IMG/VR virus record: IMGVR_UViG_3300031576_000131 | Coordinates: 1 to 42,106 of that record | Strand: one strand, 5' to 3' | Source: a virus | DNA: 42,106 bases | In this document: positions 17,993-38,495 of the stretch, one piece after another | Position numbering within the stretch: position 1 is the stretch's first letter | Layout: every line of letters begins with the position of its first letter | Notes under the pieces: model-generated | What the model saw: the letters and a program-made list of their open reading frames with translations, nothing else | Database searches by the model: none | What the model was told of the DNA's origin: nothing | Program-made: the position numbers and the translations under genes

Positions 17993-20900
17993 TTACCGAC
18001 CTCGCCGTCTACGGCTGATTGCGCGCAGCGCCTGTGCCCCGCGCCCGCTCGAAATGTATCGTTCGAAATCCGCGGAGTCCAGTGTGTTGATGTTCGCATG
18101 TACAACGTCGCCACGCTGTTCCTCGCCTGGCCCACGAACCGCGCGCCGCAGCCTGAACCCGTCCGTCTCCTGGGGGCGCAGGCCGCTCGGAATGACGAAA
18201 CTGCGCACCGGCACAGCAGCCGCGCCGACCGGCGACTCCAGTGCTGGCCGCAGCGCAGCGCGCAACGTGCTGATAGGAAACGGCTGCTGTAGCACTATCA
18301 GTTCTCGCCGGGGTGAGCCGGTCAACGAGACGGCAGTAGTGCTGCCAGCAGCCGCAGGACGCGCTGCAGGTTCGGCCGGCCTTTGAGCCGCGAGAGCACG
18401 CTGGATCACCAGTGCGATACTCTGCTGGTCGCGTGCGACCTGTGCAGCCTGTAGCGCCGACGCTGCTGCTAGCGCTGGCGGCAGAACGCGCAGTCTCGGC
18501 AGCGGCGGCCCTGCGCCAGGTGGTGGCGGCTCGGGCTCTCTACCGGGCTTGCCGCCGACTCGCCCGCCACCGAGCGGGATTCCGCCACCAATGCCAGGAG
18601 CCAGGGTTGCGCCACCCGAGAGAATCGCCGCGACAAGCTCCACTGCAATCAGAGCTACGTACTTGGCGATCAGTGCATCCAGCATCTGAAACATTATCGC
18701 TTTTACGTTGTCAGCAAATGATTGAGTTGAATCAACCGCGCTTCTGAACGCAGCGGCGAAAGTCTGTCCGATTGAATCGGCTACGGTGGCCTTCACCTCG
18801 GCACCGAACTTTGCAAAAGTGGCGCCCATCCGATCAGCCGCCGCGCGCGCAGCCTCTTCAGCCGCTTCTAATTCTTCCCTGGCATTCAACACGCGAACTC
18901 TAAGATCGAGATTCTTTGGATATTTCGCCGATTCGGCTTCTAGTTCGGCAAGATCAGCGCGCGCCTCGGCAAAGCGCTCTAGGCGCACGAGTAGCTGGAA
19001 TCTGTGCTCGGTGCGCGATATGTCGTCTAATGCCTTGAGTTCCGGATATGCCTTGGCGGCACTGTCGCGCACTGCCTGCAATGCCGCAATCATCTCGCCG
19101 CTCGCCGCCCGAGCATTCTCGGGAATGCGTTCTAGGATACTGTCGATCCCGGTGAATATCGCGACAGCCTCATTCGCACTGCTTGGCGTTTCGAATGCTC
19201 CGGCAAGCGACGACTTGACCAAGGCTGAAAGCTGCGCGACGCTATTTGCCTCCCTGACTGCTGCCGAAAAGTCGAATAGACGTACACTCGAAGGTGCGGT
19301 CTGCAGAGCCGATTGAATGATCTCCTTCGTCTGATCGACCTCGGCCTTGATTTTGGCATTGTCAATCTTGGCCTGAAGATCGAGAACGAATTGCTTGTCA
19401 AGGCTCGATAGGAAGCTCTCGATCTTCGGACGCGCCTGTTGCGACTCGGCAGCCACTGTCGAAAGACTCTCACGAACTTCGAGCAGGCGGGCACGGAATG
19501 CCTCTGTGGAATCGGACTTGAACGCAATTTGCAGCGACGCGCGAATCGTATCGAGAGACGACGCCAGCGAGGTACCGACTGCCAGGTCGCGCGGATCGAA
19601 AAGCGATATTGTCTCACCGGCAGCCGAGTCGCGGAGGCGCTGCGAAATCTGCGATACCTTGTCGAGTGTCGCGGCATCGACTGTGATGTCGAGCTTTCCG
19701 CTTGTCAGCTTGTTCATTAGCAACAAATCGGCATTGACCTGCTCAAGCTCACGACGCGCTATGTCAGTGTCGCGAAACTCTAGTGACGCACGGCGTTCCT
19801 CAAGTGACTTGAACAACACCTCGATCTTCGCTGCATCTCCTGTGTCAACTACTGCCTTGATGCGCTGTTCTATCGGCACCTCGACGGCGCGCTTCAAAGG
19901 CAGCAACGTATCGGCAATGTCTTTGGCGTTGACAACAAACGGCACATTGAAGAAGCCGAAGGCATCAACCCACTGCGCGCGCGCGCGCGTTGCATCGCCG
20001 CGAATATCTTCGGCCACTAACCTAATGCGCGCCTCGAGTGTTGACAGTCCACTCGATGCGTCAAGAGCGGCCTTGATTGATGCAACGGCTTCGCGTTCAT
20101 CGGCAACGATGCGCAAGTTCAGCTGCTGCCGAAGTTCTTTGGCGCGCGCGTCGATCTTGTCGAACGCGATCAGTGCAAATCGAATGTCGGGCGTGCTGAT
20201 CTGCGGGCTTGCCTGTTCGTCCCGAAGCGCATCAATGCGTGCCTGCGCTCGCTGTGCCAACGCCTCGAAAGCCTCGACTTGCGCAATTGCCTCTTGTATC
20301 GGACCGCCGGCGACAGTCATCGTGATTTCGGCTGTCGCTGCCGGACTCTCAAGGAACCGCTTTAGGGCAAGCCCTTGATCGATTGCGCGCTGGAAGGCAA
20401 GCAATCCGAAAGACTGCGAGCGCTGTACCGCCGTATCGTATTTGCCGATTGCAGCGGGGAGTTCATCGATTGCGCCCTTGTGAAACTGGACGAATAGCGT
20501 CGCAATCCTGAACCCGGCCGCGATGGCATCAATCGCCGGCCTGAGCACGGGCACAACTATTCCGCCGATGGATTCGCGGAAGTTTTCTGCTTCGACTGCC
20601 AGCTTGTTGATTGAGCCGCCGAACGTATTGCCGAGCGCTGCGGCCGTGCCGCCGAACTTCGCCTCGATCTGAGTAAGAGCCTGGGCGAACTTCTCCGACT
20701 TCGACGCGGCCTCGTCAACTGTAATGCCGTAGCGCGAGAGCATCTGTGTACTGCCCTCTGCGGCGCGCGCGAGAAGTAATGCAGCCGACGCCGTGTCTCG
20801 GCCAAGAACTTGGCTTAGGTCAATTGCTGCTCGGGCGGCTCGCTCAAGCGACGCCCCGCCGAGTCTGCCGACCTGCGCCAGCGTTGCCGTGAGTCGGACT

Positions 20901-21487
20901 ATTTCCTCGTCGTCGATTCCGGTTGCTCTTGCGAGAGCGGCGGCAAATGAATTGATCCCAGAGACAGCGCCCCTAGAAAACTCGCCAGTGCTCGACAGTG
21001 CTACGCCAAGGCGAACCGATGCGTCCTCGGCTTCGTTCGCGGCGTCAATGTATGGTTTCAGAGCCCGAACTGCAACATACACCGAAGAGGCAACAACTGC
21101 GAATCCTGCCGACACGAGCCCGAGCGGAGCGACCAGGCTTGTCGCTGCGCTGCGGATGCCAGCGAATGCCGCCTGGACGCCGCCAAGCTGCGCACCGATC
21201 TGCTGCCCAGGAAGCAATGGTAGATTGAATCGAGAACGGAACGACTCCATGATCGCAGCCGCTCGCGCCGCCTCTGCTAGCTGTGCTCGCTGCTGCCCAG
21301 CAGACACCGCCATTGCGTTGCCCATGGCAGTCGCGCGAGTCTGCATGGCGCCGAACCCGGCCGCTGCCCTGGGGAACGCCGTAGCCATGCCATCCGTGGC
21401 GCCCTTGATGCGCTGCATTTCATCGACAACGACCTTGGAGCCTTGCGATTGAAATACAACTTCGAGAACATTGCTTCCGCTTGCCAC
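17993..21487 (-). CDS. Tape measure protein, 1164 aa
   Basis: GTG 21487 with GAAGGG upstream, 4 bases after the stop of the frameshifted chaperone. The N-terminal 90 residues are helical; hydrophobic segments occur near 120-150 (LVAPLGLVSAGFAVVASSVY) and again near 960-1000 (YVALIAVELVAAILSGGATL). The middle is a long series of charged helices with heptad character. A Pro/Gly-rich stretch precedes the tail. Tape measures set tail length at about 0.15 nm per residue, which predicts a tail near 170 nm (established scaling, applied here as inference). Its place after the chaperone pair is canonical. Confidence 0.92.
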   Translation of the reverse strand: MASGSNVLEVVFQSQGSKVVVDEMQRIKGATDGMATAFPRAAAGFGAMQTRATAMGNAMAVSAGQQRAQLAEAARAAAIMESFRSRFNLPLLPGQQIGAQLGGVQAAFAGIRSAATSLVAPLGLVSAGFAVVASSVYVAVRALKPYIDAANEAEDASVRLGVALSSTGEFSRGAVSGINSFAAALARATGIDDEEIVRLTATLAQVGRLGGASLERAARAAIDLSQVLGRDTASAALLLARAAEGSTQMLSRYGITVDEAASKSEKFAQALTQIEAKFGGTAAALGNTFGGSINKLAVEAENFRESIGGIVVPVLRPAIDAIAAGFRIATLFVQFHKGAIDELPAAIGKYDTAVQRSQSFGLLAFQRAIDQGLALKRFLESPAATAEITMTVAGGPIQEAIAQVEAFEALAQRAQARIDALRDEQASPQISTPDIRFALIAFDKIDARAKELRQQLNLRIVADEREAVASIKAALDASSGLSTLEARIRLVAEDIRGDATRARAQWVDAFGFFNVPFVVNAKDIADTLLPLKRAVEVPIEQRIKAVVDTGDAAKIEVLFKSLEERRASLEFRDTDIARRELEQVNADLLLMNKLTSGKLDITVDAATLDKVSQISQRLRDSAAGETISLFDPRDLAVGTSLASSLDTIRASLQIAFKSDSTEAFRARLLEVRESLSTVAAESQQARPKIESFLSSLDKQFVLDLQAKIDNAKIKAEVDQTKEIIQSALQTAPSSVRLFDFSAAVREANSVAQLSALVKSSLAGAFETPSSANEAVAIFTGIDSILERIPENARAASGEMIAALQAVRDSAAKAYPELKALDDISRTEHRFQLLVRLERFAEARADLAELEAESAKYPKNLDLRVRVLNAREELEAAEEAARAAADRMGATFAKFGAEVKATVADSIGQTFAAAFRSAVDSTQSFADNVKAIMFQMLDALIAKYVALIAVELVAAILSGGATLAPGIGGGIPLGGGRVGGKPGREPEPPPPGAGPPLPRLRVLPPALAAASALQAAQVARDQQSIALVIQRALAAQRPAEPAARPAAAGSTTAVSLTGSPRRELIVLQQPFPISTLRAALRPALESPVGAAAVPVRSFVIPSGLRPQETDGFRLRRAVRGPGEEQRGDVVHANINTLDSADFERYISSGRGAQALRAISRRRRGR

Positions 21488-21491
21488 GCGA

Positions 21492-22167
21492 TTACCCTTC
21501 GGTCCTGTTCGCTCCGAGTTCTTCTGAGTAGAACACCATTGCCTGCATGTCAATGATCAGGTACGCCATCGGGATGTGTTCTCCCGGCACGTCACGCCGA
21601 TTGAACAGTATCTCGTGCGGCAATAGGTTCAACTGTTTCGCCATCCAGCCTAGCTGGACGTATTTGTCCCGGTCGAAAGCCGCCCTCCTTGTAGCCGGGC
21701 AGTTCTTCTAGGTCGCCGCCGACTTGGGCTTCCCAAAGTATCGCGGCACCGATGCGACCGAGCGATTCAAGGCCGAGCGAAGCGAGGTCGTCTATGTCGA
21801 TTTCGTTGTTCTCGTACTTCGGTGTAGTGCCGTTCGGAACGACGCGAAGCGGCGTCCACGACTCTGTGTAGATCGGCTCGCCGGTCTCGTGTGCGACCTG
21901 TATTGCTCGCTGCTCGATAACGCCGCACGGTACCACCTTGCACAGCAGTACGTACAACTCGCGCTGCTTCTCGAAACCCCATTCCGCCACTGGTGTCGCC
22001 GGCAGGACTGGAACTTCAATCCCATTCTCGAAGTAATCCGCAGTGCGAAACGGCCGCACGCGAACGGCGATCGGCTGCCCATCTTCCATGATGTGCTGGA
22101 GCTTGATGGTTGTGAACTTCGGTCGGCGCGCGCGCGCATTCAGAACGAAATCAACGACGTTTCCCAT
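21492..22167 (-). CDS. Tail assembly chaperone, frameshifted long form (G-T analogue)
   Basis: Inferred join of 22167-21676 with 21674-21492. The second frame encodes 60 residues with no start needed (DRDKYVQLGWMAKQLNLLPH and on, ending ELGANRTEG) and stops 4 bases before the tape measure. Read through a +1 shift at TTT CGA, the fusion is 224 residues and the junction GYKEGGF-DRDKYVQLGW reads naturally. This mirrors gpG-gpGT of lambda and equivalents in most siphophages, where both forms coat the tape measure during assembly. The second frame could also start at an internal ATG near 21650 (MAKQLNLLP), so the shift should be tested. Confidence 0.72.
21592..22167 (-). CDS. Tail assembly chaperone, short form (G analogue)
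   Basis: 191 residues from ATG 22167 with AAGGGTGGGC upstream. It starts MGNVVDFVLNARARRPKFTT and is mixed alpha/beta, with an acidic helix (EIDIDDLASLGLESLGRIGA) before the shift point. It lies between the tail tube genes and the tape measure, where the chaperone gene is always found in siphophages. The last 27 residues (after Phe164) are the zero-frame tail that the +1 shift would replace. Identification rests on position and the frameshift arrangement rather than on a named family. Confidence 0.8.
   Translation of the reverse strand: MGNVVDFVLNARARRPKFTTIKLQHIMEDGQPIAVRVRPFRTADYFENGIEVPVLPATPVAEWGFEKQRELYVLLCKVVPCGVIEQRAIQVAHETGEPIYTESWTPLRVVPNGTTPKYENNEIDIDDLASLGLESLGRIGAAILWEAQVGGDLEELPGYKEGGFRPGQIRPARLDGETVEPIAARDTVQSA
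21673..21690 (-). promoter_or_regulatory. Candidate programmed +1 frameshift signal
   Basis: On the minus strand: AAGGAGGG (21690-21683), four bases CGGC, then zero-frame TTT (21678-21676) followed by CGA (21675-21673). A tRNA-Phe on UUU can re-pair with UUC one base downstream, and CGA is often a slowly read codon. An internal Shine-Dalgarno just upstream of the slip codon is the arrangement known from the prfB (release factor 2) +1 site. Confidence 0.6.
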
Positions 22168-22194: not shown

Positions 22195-23463
22195 TCACGG
22201 AACGTATTGAAGCCCGCGATGATCGCCGCTGCCGCTATCTGAACTCGAAACGATGCTGGAATCGGCGCCGCTCATCTGCAGACAGATGATGTTCTTCTGA
22301 TCCGTTGCAAGCGCAGTCTCTGTCGTTGTGTATGTCGCCAAGACCGCATTCGCACGCAAGAACGCGCGCGGATTGCCAAGGTCTTGCAGCGGCCGCCGCG
22401 CTTCCGTGATTACCATGTTCTTGACGTAAAAGTCAAGAACGGCCGGAATCGAAGCCGTCGCGCTCGCGGCGCTGTCGGTGCCGGCGCGCAGGTCGTAGTC
22501 CTTGTCTAAGACGTATCGCGTGCGGAACTTGATAGCATTCCGCACAACCCAGTCATAGAACGGATACGTGGCGGCCGGAGCCGCGAGCCCGTCGCCGAGA
22601 TCCTCGGCGCGCATCTTGTGTTCAATCGTCACCTCCGCGCTCCAAGTCTCCTTGTGAATCGGCTTCTCGAACGTATCAAGCTGCGTCAGGTATGCCAGCG
22701 GAAAATCAGTTCCGCCTGTCACCTTGAGCGACCAGGAATCCGCAACCCATGGCCGACTCGTTCCACCGGGTGTGCCGACCTGGAATATACCTGGCATGTT
22801 CGTCTGTCCAGTGTTCCGCGCATTGAGATGCCGTGCGCCAACGAGGCGTTCCGCCGAAGCAACGACCGCGATAGGCGCGGTTGGACTTCCGCCGGCCTGC
22901 GTGATGAGCGCGAATTGCCCGATGACATCGAACGTCAGCGTAGGCGCATCCAGTTCGGGCTGGTTCCATTCAAAGCCCGTTATCATGCAGCCTGTAAACA
23001 CTTCGCGCCATGGAGTTGCGGACTCGCCGCCCTTCCATACGATGATGGTAAGGCTTTTCGACAATCCACCAGCAGTCTCCGTGACCGAGGACCGCAAGTC
23101 GGCTAGCGTGAAGATGTGCGAACTCATGGTCGCCCCGCACGCCTGCCCATCGGTGCCGACACTCGATCGGCGCTGGTACTGGCCGCCGCAGCCGTAGGCC
23201 AGCATCTGTGCCATGAGAGTCGAATTGAATCGCCCGCGCGTCTTGATCTGCCCGCGCACGAGACGCGAGCCGTAGTCAAGCTCTCCTGTGGCACCGAGCA
23301 AGCCGGACTCTCTGTTCTTGTTCATCAGGGCGCGATTGACTGTCAGCGTTTCCTCGATGAGAGGGACGCGAAAAGTCAACGGCTCAGACTGTACTGCGTT
23401 GTACGTCGGTTCAATGCTGAAACAAACAGCACTTTTCTGTGAAATGCCGCGCACCAGTCCCAC
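22195..23463 (-). CDS. Tail tube-like protein 2, 422 aa
   Basis: GTG 23463 has the near-perfect AAGGAGGTGA upstream, implying strong translation. It begins MGLVRGISQK and has beta-rich repeats, TGCMITGFEWNQPELDAPTL near 165-184 and a Ser/Gly-rich end. It shares with the gene upstream the MGLVRG start and the GCMI-x-x-(F/L)-x-W-x-Q-(x)n-D-x-P pattern, so the two are paralogues. One may form the tail tube and the other a tail terminator-proximal or decorated ring. Tube identity is inferred from position before the chaperone and from the strong ribosome site. Confidence 0.72.
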   Translation of the reverse strand: MGLVRGISQKSAVCFSIEPTYNAVQSEPLTFRVPLIEETLTVNRALMNKNRESGLLGATGELDYGSRLVRGQIKTRGRFNSTLMAQMLAYGCGGQYQRRSSVGTDGQACGATMSSHIFTLADLRSSVTETAGGLSKSLTIIVWKGGESATPWREVFTGCMITGFEWNQPELDAPTLTFDVIGQFALITQAGGSPTAPIAVVASAERLVGARHLNARNTGQTNMPGIFQVGTPGGTSRPWVADSWSLKVTGGTDFPLAYLTQLDTFEKPIHKETWSAEVTIEHKMRAEDLGDGLAAPAATYPFYDWVVRNAIKFRTRYVLDKDYDLRAGTDSAASATASIPAVLDFYVKNMVITEARRPLQDLGNPRAFLRANAVLATYTTTETALATDQKNIICLQMSGADSSIVSSSDSGSGDHRGLQYVP

Positions 23464-36940: not shown

Positions 36941-37216
36941 TCAGACCGCCTTGATAAGGCCCTGGGGCTCGGTGAATTCTTTCGCGATTCTGGATTGCGT
37001 TTCGTTCCATTGTGCGCACAGTCCGTCGAATGCGCCGCTAGCAGCGTAGTGCAGCTTCAGACACGCCTCGTCGTGCGTCTTGCACGGCCCGACACCGACA
37101 AGCAGGCCAACCAACTGGCAGCGTGCATACCAGCTATCTTCGTCAGCACGATATGCGACTTCGACCTTGGATGCGAAGATGCCAGGCGCACCGGCCGGGC
37201 GTTGCAGGTTGCTCAT
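36941..37216 (-). CDS. Hypothetical protein, 91 aa
   Basis: ATG 37216 overlaps the DpdA-like stop (ATGA) after ACGGGAGAG. The sequence starts MSNLQRPAGAPGIFASKVEV, has a strand with YRADEDSWYARCQLVGLLVG and a helix with THDEACLKLHYAASGAFDGL. It is mixed alpha/beta and soluble. No family recognised. It is co-translated with the DpdA-like gene and could be an accessory factor, but nothing shows it directly. Confidence 0.68.
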   Translation of the reverse strand: MSNLQRPAGAPGIFASKVEVAYRADEDSWYARCQLVGLLVGVGPCKTHDEACLKLHYAASGAFDGLCAQWNETQSRIAKEFTEPQGLIKAV

Positions 37217-37938
37217 TTTCTCTCCCGTGCCTGTTCGAGGACGTGAAACAGTTCTGCACGCAAGGCAGCGTTGTCGCGGAATCGCCCCACGACATAGGAA
37301 CTCGACATTGTATTCGGCGTTTTCACGCCTCGCATCACAGTACACAGGTGCTGCCCCGATGCGAACACGGCAACGTCATCCGTGCCGGTGCTGGTGACCA
37401 TTTGCCTGCCAATGTCCGTGACCATGCGCTCCTGCATTTGCAAGCGCCCGGAGTTGTGCTTGGGTTTTCTTGCAATTCCGACCATGCCACCGATTGCGAC
37501 CTTGTCGAACCGCTTGCATAGTTCGGCAAGAACTTCCCAGCCCGTACCGTAATGGAATGTCGGGATCGCGTTCAGCCCGGCTCGACGCGCTTCCTCTGTG
37601 TTTCGCAGTGAGGCCCGCGCGTCTCCGATCACGTCGAGAGCGAATACCTCGGTCAGCAGAGAATCTTCACGAACCAGTCGCAGTGCTGTTTCGATGTATT
37701 GCTCGTTCGAAATTTCAATTCCAAGACTGCGCGCAGTGAACGCCCCGCTGTCGAGACACCATTCTCTGATCGCGGCTCCTGGGCGCATTCTGTTCCATGG
37801 TTTGATGTAAGCAAACGAAACGAGCACCGCTGGCATGTGTTCTGCGGACGGTTTCAGAACTCCGTTTTTCCCCTGTAGAAAATTAAGAGTGCCGCCACCG
37901 CAGGTGTGCGCTAGATAGATCGTCGGTGCGGCCGTCAC
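37213..37938 (-). CDS. dpdA-like: DpdA/TGT-like transglycosylase (candidate DNA 7-deazaguanine modification)
   Basis: 241 residues from GTG 37938 (GTGA overlap with ParB-like stop, GGAAG upstream). Motifs match the phage DpdA branch of the tRNA-guanine transglycosylase superfamily: CLDSGAFTA near 61-69, FALDVIGDA near 99-107 with a candidate catalytic Asp, AIPTFHYGTGWEVL near 125-138 and VAIGGMVGI near 147-155. DpdA enzymes exchange guanine in DNA for a 7-deazaguanine base and so resist restriction. No folE, queD, queE or queC gene is present here, so a precursor would have to come from the host. The family call is from motif memory; substrate is inference. Confidence 0.78.
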   Translation of the reverse strand: MTAAPTIYLAHTCGGGTLNFLQGKNGVLKPSAEHMPAVLVSFAYIKPWNRMRPGAAIREWCLDSGAFTARSLGIEISNEQYIETALRLVREDSLLTEVFALDVIGDARASLRNTEEARRAGLNAIPTFHYGTGWEVLAELCKRFDKVAIGGMVGIARKPKHNSGRLQMQERMVTDIGRQMVTSTGTDDVAVFASGQHLCTVMRGVKTPNTMSSSYVVGRFRDNAALRAELFHVLEQARERK

Positions 37939-38495
37939 TTGAGAAACTTCCGGCATGCGTGCATCACAGCCTCAACCAAATCATCTGTGTCGATCTTCTT
38001 TGCAACTGCGTTCAGGACTGCTGCTTCGTTCTCGTTGAACTTCAGTGTCACGCGCTCGTCGATTTCGTCTGGCCCGTCTTCGATGTCGGCCGGGCTCCAT
38101 TCAGCAGCCAGCAGCGGGCGCAATTCGGCAGCACTCCAGCCAAGCGCCTCAAGGTCGATTCCTTCTTCGAGCAAACCTTTTAGCTGCGACGCCAGCGCTT
38201 CGTAATCCCATTCTGCATGCTCTGCGGTTCGGTTGTCGGCAATCGCATATGCAGTCAGTTCTGCTGCACCGAGTTTGCTGCGCGTACAGTCGATCTTTTC
38301 CCATCCAAGCGCAATCGCTGCTTGCAGTGTCGCGTTGCCGGCGCGCACGATTCCGTTCGAGTCGACGAGGATGGGCCGCTGCTGACCGAATCGAGCGAGA
38401 CTCGCCTTGACTGCCTCGATACTTCGCTCGGGATGGGTGCGAACATTCGCCGGATCCATGTGAAGCGCTTTAATTTCAACTGTTTCTACCTGCAC
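37935..38495 (-). CDS. ParB/Srx-like N-domain protein
   Basis: GTG 38495 has AAAGGGG upstream; 186 residues. The ParB/sulfiredoxin-type core is visible: EIKALHMDPANVRTHP, then RFGQQRPILVDSNGIVRAGN near 35-54 and a helix TLQAAIALGW, with the G-x-x-R-A-G-N motif corresponding to the usual nucleotide-binding loop. A helical middle and acidic C-terminus follow. Stand-alone versions occur in many phages next to terminase or DNA modification genes and may act as CTPases or nucleases. It is directly joined to the DpdA-like gene, so the two probably work together or are at least co-regulated (inference). Confidence 0.88.
   Translation of the reverse strand: MQVETVEIKALHMDPANVRTHPERSIEAVKASLARFGQQRPILVDSNGIVRAGNATLQAAIALGWEKIDCTRSKLGAAELTAYAIADNRTAEHAEWDYEALASQLKGLLEEGIDLEALGWSAAELRPLLAAEWSPADIEDGPDEIDERVTLKFNENEAAVLNAVAKKIDTDDLVEAVMHACRKFLK

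Follow-up and report, generated by a model that had tools for sequence, protein, structure and literature searches.

Frameshifts in the genes for tail assembly chaperones are by default treated as −1 (−2 in Mu), and the question raised by the locus described here is how ribosomes might reach the second frame of a putative chaperone gene when that frame lies +1 of the first. The locus is carried by the window, as we call the whole stretch of DNA analysed, a single metagenomic contig that makes up an entire IMG/VR record of 42,106 bases. Its minus-strand late genes occur in the order terminase, portal, protease, capsid, connectors, two tail-tube-like genes, an ORF of 191 codons and tape measure, and the putative chaperone pair occupies the position of G and GT, between the tube-like genes (24656–22195) and the TMP_2 tape measure (Table 1). 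The tandem tail-tube-like genes both match phrog_290 and PF18906, and represent a duplicated tube protein. The large subunit of the terminase (36060–34351, minus strand) had one weak match among 50,697 cultured-phage records, to Weizmannia phage Youna2 (29.5 % over 43 %); judged from this match, the phage of the window belongs to a very divergent lineage. A 247-aa protein encoded at 37216–37956 (minus strand) matches the PHROGs for queuine tRNA-ribosyltransferase (residues 40–176) and GTP cyclohydrolase I (residues 155–240), and may have a role in 7-deazaguanine synthesis or DNA modification. No tRNA genes were found in the window.

Table 1. Coordinates of the putative chaperone pair, its candidate recoding signal and the neighbouring tail genes in the window.
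Feature	Coordinates	Strand	Evidence or remarks
First chaperone ORF (G)	21592..22167	−	191 codons, ATG start; ORF list, sequence and position
Internal Shine-Dalgarno AAGGAGG, 5 nt 5′ of TTT	21684..21690	−	Anti-Shine-Dalgarno ΔG −11.9 kcal/mol
Candidate shift site TTT_CGA	21673..21678	−	Sequence; switch-point maximum; TTTC unchanged throughout a second chaperone family
Second (T) frame, +1 of G, DRDKYVQLGWMAKQLNLLPHEILFNRR..., 60 codons plus TAA	21492..21674	−	Translation; codon usage
First ATG in the T frame (rival start)	21642..21644	−	Weak AGG 5′; 3′ arm of a possible hairpin
Tape measure protein	17993..21487	−	Likely GTG at 21487; Pfam TMP_2, E = 2.6e-8
Tail-tube-like protein 2, 422 aa, directly 5′ of the chaperone	22195..23463	−	phrog_290, E = 1.1e-10; PF18906, E = 2.1e-4
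Tail-tube-like protein 1, 391 aa	23481..24656	−	PF18906, E = 1.5e-8; phrog_290, E = 1.9e-4

The T frame is offset exactly +1 from the G frame and is open from 21708 to 21492, the overlap being open over 21708–21594. At the join the minus strand reads 5′-TAC AAG GAG GGC GGC TTT CGA CCG-3′, with the span 21690–21673 being AAGGAGGGCGGCTTTCGA. TTT is codon 164 of the G ORF and is followed by 27 further codons before the stop (28 counting TTT itself); with CGA, it forms an in-frame UUU_CGN (21678–21673) inside the overlap, preceded by a GGC codon. As read from the sequence, tRNA-Phe could move from TTT (21678–21676) to TTC (21677–21675), with which GAC would replace CGA as the next codon; a slip on the preceding GGC_U would not find a good re-pairing. 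The T-frame product reads ...GGF followed by DRDKYVQLGWMAKQLNLLP... across the join, and its TAA ends 5 bases 5′ of the likely tape-measure GTG (21487). The first-pass annotation had put forward the +1 offset, the re-pairing of tRNA-Phe from UUU to UUC at a TTT_C followed by CGA, and a fused product (GGF-DRDKYVQLGW) stopping just before the tape measure, all of which were borne out, the re-pairing as a predicted event. Its count of four bases between the Shine-Dalgarno and TTT is correct for the element written as AAGGAGGG, but not when the spacer is counted from AGGAGG (5 nt) or from GGAG (6 nt).

The overlap of the window contains no in-frame heptamer of the X_XXY_YYZ type and no homopolymer run of five or more nucleotides, and we consequently rejected, respectively, a −1 shift of the lambda type and transcriptional slippage. 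Reading frame alone cannot separate +1 from −2, and a −2 shift in the manner of phage Mu would lead to the same T frame. Nevertheless, there is no re-pairing partner nearby (shifts from UUU to GCU and from GGC to GCG or AGG are all mismatched) and the elements conserved elsewhere are TTTC with the Shine-Dalgarno, which makes a −2 shift extremely improbable. A possible RNA hairpin 3′ of the site (21660–21642) was not significant (z −1.04), and the codon CGA, which accounts for 16 % of the arginine codons of the window, is not very rare.

The point at which coding switches from one frame to the other was located without using the motif, by means of a scan that reads frame 0 up to a position x and frame +1 after it, scored with the codon usage of the 18 other genes of the window and limited to the 39 codon positions allowing a stop-free +1 switch. 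The maximum was at TTT (21678), with positions 21681–21675 all within 1 nat, and the preference of codon usage for the T frame sets in at the shift site, some 30 nt 5′ of the first T-frame ATG. These results bear on whether the T frame could be a separate gene of 50 aa (MAKQLNLLPH...), starting with the ATG at 21644 and perhaps coupled to the first ORF, with AAGGAGG and TTTC being coincidental. An in-frame ATG is indeed present, but a switch there (21645) was 7.4 nats worse than at TTT, merely a weak AGG precedes this ATG, and it is perhaps inside the hairpin.

The pairing to the anti-Shine-Dalgarno, scored on 12 nt upstream and ending 3 nt before TTT, is stronger at this TTT than at any other of the 8,240 codon positions scored across 19 window genes. 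TTT_CGN occurs in frame eight times among these 8,240 codons, with a strong Shine-Dalgarno at the shift-site copy only, and the expected number of TTT_CGN with a Shine-Dalgarno of −8 or better among the 39 positions is about 39 × 8/8240 × 0.0056 = 2e-4. The second frame overlaps the end of the first and, by computation, both read as a fusion. An assembly or sequencing indel could also produce this arrangement, if the true gene were a single ORF (GGC TTC GAC) and an extra T caused the apparent shift; the sequence is a single metagenomic contig and an overcall in TTC gives exactly TTTC. However, such an error would need to coincide with a position 5 nt 3′ of the strongest Shine-Dalgarno among the 8,240 positions, and a like arrangement was found in 63 distinct genes (see below), including those of isolated, sequenced phages, so that we consider an indel very unlikely.

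Relatives of the window's own chaperone were sought by several routes. The 191-codon ORF had no matches in Pfam, PHROGs, cultured phages or viral contigs, and no relative of it was found with single-protein scans (chaperone, portal and tail-tube 2), a portal alignment (which retrieved only portals about 25 % identical), a helicase alignment (80 loci), whole-record searches of 45 of the found records, or the motif AAGGAGGNNGGNTTTCG in viral contigs. A weak match in G050/L110 (37 % over 40 aa) was set aside, its position suggesting a head-tail adaptor. A single-sequence AlphaFold model of the G ORF was unusable (pLDDT 33).

Given that relatives were undetectable, we turned to the signal, AAGGAGGNNNNNTTTCGAC, and looked for it in viral contigs. 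This motif retrieved 42 viral stretches, about ten of which (some redundant) belong to another chaperone family of like architecture: a frame of about 100–120 codons ending in KE(G/D)SF is followed by about 95 codons in +1 and, in several pairs, by a long ORF directly 3′. The pair is named tail assembly chaperone in PHROGs (phrog_25000, E 3e-11). The sequence AAGGAGG..GGCTTTCGTG in L365 and L429 was rejected as a shift, its Shine-Dalgarno serving the GTG of an apparent ERF gene; there, AAGGAGGGCGGCTTTCGTG closes a 253-codon ORF, the ERF-like GTG start comes next and the letters of the motif are an ordinary ribosome site. As a background control, a related motif, AAGGAGGNNGGNTTTCGA, yielded 118 stretches from bacterial genomes, none of them with chaperone architecture.

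Because this first set had been picked by motif, retrieval was repeated by protein similarity alone. In cultured phages, tblastn located the family in genomes of 86–96 kb, where it lies between the sheath and tube genes on one side and the tape measure on the other; its members include those of Bordetella phage PHB04, Pseudomonas phages Touem01, Dolphis and Jeremy, Aeromonas phage ST4, Enterobacter phage phiT5282EW, Yersinia phage fHe-Yen8-01 and Morganella phage Mecenats66. A profile search, whose sole pattern lay inside the T domain, identified 80 more viral loci; the phrog_25000 family is one of contractile-tailed phages (myoviruses) of about 86–98 kb. In all of the 88 protein-retrieved loci the T frame is at +1 and the overlap contains exactly one in-frame TTTC; for comparison, the SEA-PHAGES chaperones of Kuleana and Eula are −1. 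The site is TTT_CGN in 87 of the 88 loci, the exception being L208 (IMGVR_UViG_3300042940_001342), with TTT_CAA, a natural variant suited to probing what the A-site codon contributes.

A few of the 88 loci are one genome present in two collections, and statistics were therefore calculated on 63 collapsed distinct sequences, whose fused proteins share 19–90 % amino acid identity (median 39 %); as these are mutually related, the p-values below overstate independence, and the identity range indicates that they are well diverged. TTTC was present in 63 of 63; the use of TTT in all 63 compares with a frequency of 27 % for TTT among the phenylalanine codons elsewhere in the same genes (p 4e-36). TTT is followed by CGN in 62 of the 63 genes, with CGC, CGA, CGT and CGG each present, and CGA is found at 20 of these 62 sites, whereas it makes up 5 % of CGN elsewhere. 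Immediately 5′ of TTT, 45 of the 63 genes have TCC or TCT, all 45 serines being TCY vs. 31 % expected; CGA is the next commonest codon at this position (7), and serine is never encoded there other than by UCC or UCU.

The sequences 5′ of the site are similarly constrained. GGAG lies exactly 6 nt 5′ of TTT in 49 of the 63 distinct genes, that is, in 49 of the 50 having a GGAG, and the median anti-Shine-Dalgarno energy is −8.1 kcal/mol, vs. −1.7 kcal/mol for upstream positions of these genes (p 3e-34). Among the codons 5′ of the shift site, GAG was used for 54 of 60 glutamates (p 1e-10) and AAG for 41 of 42 lysines (p 1e-6), indicating that synonymous choices favour the Shine-Dalgarno. RNA structure 3′ of the site was not significant in this family (mean z −0.29). 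The conservation of TTTC and the purine tract, about which the first-pass annotation had asked, was thus found in a sister family, no homologue of the window's own chaperone having been detected.

In 18 of the 63 genes the T frame offers no ATG, GTG or TTG ahead of its conserved motif, and independent initiation of T is therefore impossible in them; a second frame with its own conserved ATG and ribosome site, the arrangement that would have countered the first-pass proposal, was not seen. A separate T gene is also the choice made by the annotators of cultured phages of this family, who listed the two halves as separate genes, but the 18 genes devoid of a start, together with the coding switch upstream of the ATG in the window, make it quite improbable. 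For eight cultured phages (L154–L161), the annotation either lists the chaperone halves as two hypothetical proteins or calls the second half alone; in none are they joined.

The distant cultured members phiT5282EW, fHe-Yen8-01 and Mecenats66 have a weak Shine-Dalgarno or none, yet they keep TTT_CGN, suggesting that TTT_CGN is the core of the signal and the Shine-Dalgarno is accessory. It could even be that slippage is real and the Shine-Dalgarno is no stimulator, UUU_CGN alone being sufficient and AAGGAGG reflecting Lys-Glu codons. The retention of TTT_CGN with a poor or no Shine-Dalgarno in Mecenats66 and L238 would agree with this, as would the activity of UUU_CGN in eukaryotes without a Shine-Dalgarno (PMC3498833) and a spacing of 5 nt instead of the known 3 nt. 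Conversely, the synonymous bias in glutamate and lysine codons, the fixed spacing and the strength of the pairing in the window all argue for a role of this element, and we regard its dispensability as rather unlikely.

The window and the phrog_25000 chaperones (PHB04, Dolphis/Touem01, ST4 and fHe-Yen8-01) are alike in their TTT_CGN core, in the GGAG 6 nt upstream, in the +1 direction and in their place before the tape measure. In contrast, their proteins are not detectably homologous (hhalign probability 0.1–0.2 %, hmmsearch E > 0.3), and a faint resemblance between their T domains, WMAKQLNLLPHEILF in the window and WFRRKYNLPPTDPRF in the other family, was not significant. The signal has arisen on two occasions, or else it was kept as the proteins diverged past recognition.

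Considering these results, we propose, with a probability of about 0.83, that the two frames of the window form a single tail assembly chaperone pair, in which a UUU_CGN +1 site with a 5′-adjacent Shine-Dalgarno would yield a G-T fusion. Most ribosomes would translate the first frame only and stop at 21592, producing a short form of 191 aa, analogous to lambda gpG. A minority would be held at UUU by base-pairing between AAGGAGG and the 3′ end of the 16S rRNA, and also because the A site would contain CGA, a less-used codon for arginine; the P-site tRNA-Phe would then slip +1 from UUU to UUC with full pairing kept. GAC would be decoded after the slip and the T domain completed, resulting in a G-T fusion of 224 aa that ends just upstream of the tape measure. 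We infer from the sequence the slippage itself, its frequency, and the roles of the Shine-Dalgarno and CGA, and by analogy the products would function like gpG and gpGT of lambda.

Among the chaperones of long-tailed phages, G/GT are reported to shift −1 in lambda and −2 in Mu (Xu et al., 2004, as reviewed in PMC5009743 and PMC3498833). The pair of the window resembles them in preceding the tape measure, in the predicted short major form and C-terminally extended minor form, and in the location of the shift near the end of G; it differs in its +1 direction, with a single-tRNA slip at TTT_CGN and a 5′ Shine-Dalgarno, and in lacking a heptamer. The chaperone of the archaeal virus HSTV-2 has been called "very likely +1" (PMC5009743). 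Programmed +1 shifts also occur in the major tail and capsid genes of Listeria phages PSA, A118 and A500 and of SPP1, at CCC_UGA and CCC_UAA (PMC5009743, PMC6316719). These likewise affect phage structural genes, but involve the tail tube or capsid gene and a proline codon with, mostly, a stop, and no Shine-Dalgarno has been described for them.

The first-pass annotation had called the site prfB-like. The prfB gene, which encodes release factor 2, shifts +1 on CUUU before a UGA stop, with a spacing of 3 nt from the Shine-Dalgarno to the slip site (PMC12421855, PMC5009743), and spacings of 3 nt for +1 stimulation and of 9–14 nt for −1 have been reviewed (PMC5009743). The likeness stands as to a +1, Shine-Dalgarno-assisted shift, with a putative P-site slip on a pyrimidine tetranucleotide and an internal Shine-Dalgarno upstream at a fixed distance. 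It fails in that prfB has a CUU slip codon, UGA in the A site, a 3-nt spacing and autoregulation, whereas the A-site codon in the window is CGA, a CGN and not a stop, and the 5-nt spacing fits neither of the reviewed values. The observation made in the first-pass annotation, namely the sequence and frame arrangement of the window, is thus confirmed, and its interpretation as a whole is partly supported.

Closer parallels are found in eukaryotic viruses. The shift site of influenza A PA-X is UCC_UUU_CGU (PMC3498833), UUU_CGN is the shift motif of plant amalgaviruses (PMC5052127), and a broader class of sites in which UUU_C occupies the P site was explicitly predicted (PMC3498833). The phage sites share UUU_CGN, with all four CGN codons represented across members, and 45 of the 63 phrog_25000 genes, but not the window, also have a preceding UCC/UCU like the UCC of PA-X. 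In contrast, the phages use bacterial ribosomes, have an added Shine-Dalgarno and encode a tail chaperone, and in the window it is GGC that precedes UUU. No description of UUU_CGN in a phage tail chaperone came up in our full-text literature search, which was limited for the most part to freely accessible papers. The 63 distinct genes of the other phage group carry this signal without annotation.

We think it probable, although with less confidence than the reading of the window itself, that a Shine-Dalgarno with UUU_CGN constitutes a recurrent bacterial +1 cassette, present in at least two unrelated lineages of phage chaperones, that would be the counterpart of the PA-X and amalgavirus sites and whose 5-nt spacing would imply a geometry other than that of prfB. 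The annotation of the chaperones of the eight cultured phages, all of which have TTT_CGN with the second frame at +1, is to be corrected, and the existence of a wider conserved family makes the shift proposed for the window testable. If true, a conserved bacterial UUU_CGN +1 site would mean that the motif is not confined to eukaryotic ribosomes, would question the rule of a 3-nt Shine-Dalgarno spacer for +1 stimulation, and would offer a simple bacterial system to examine why CGN in the A site promotes slippage on UUU_C.
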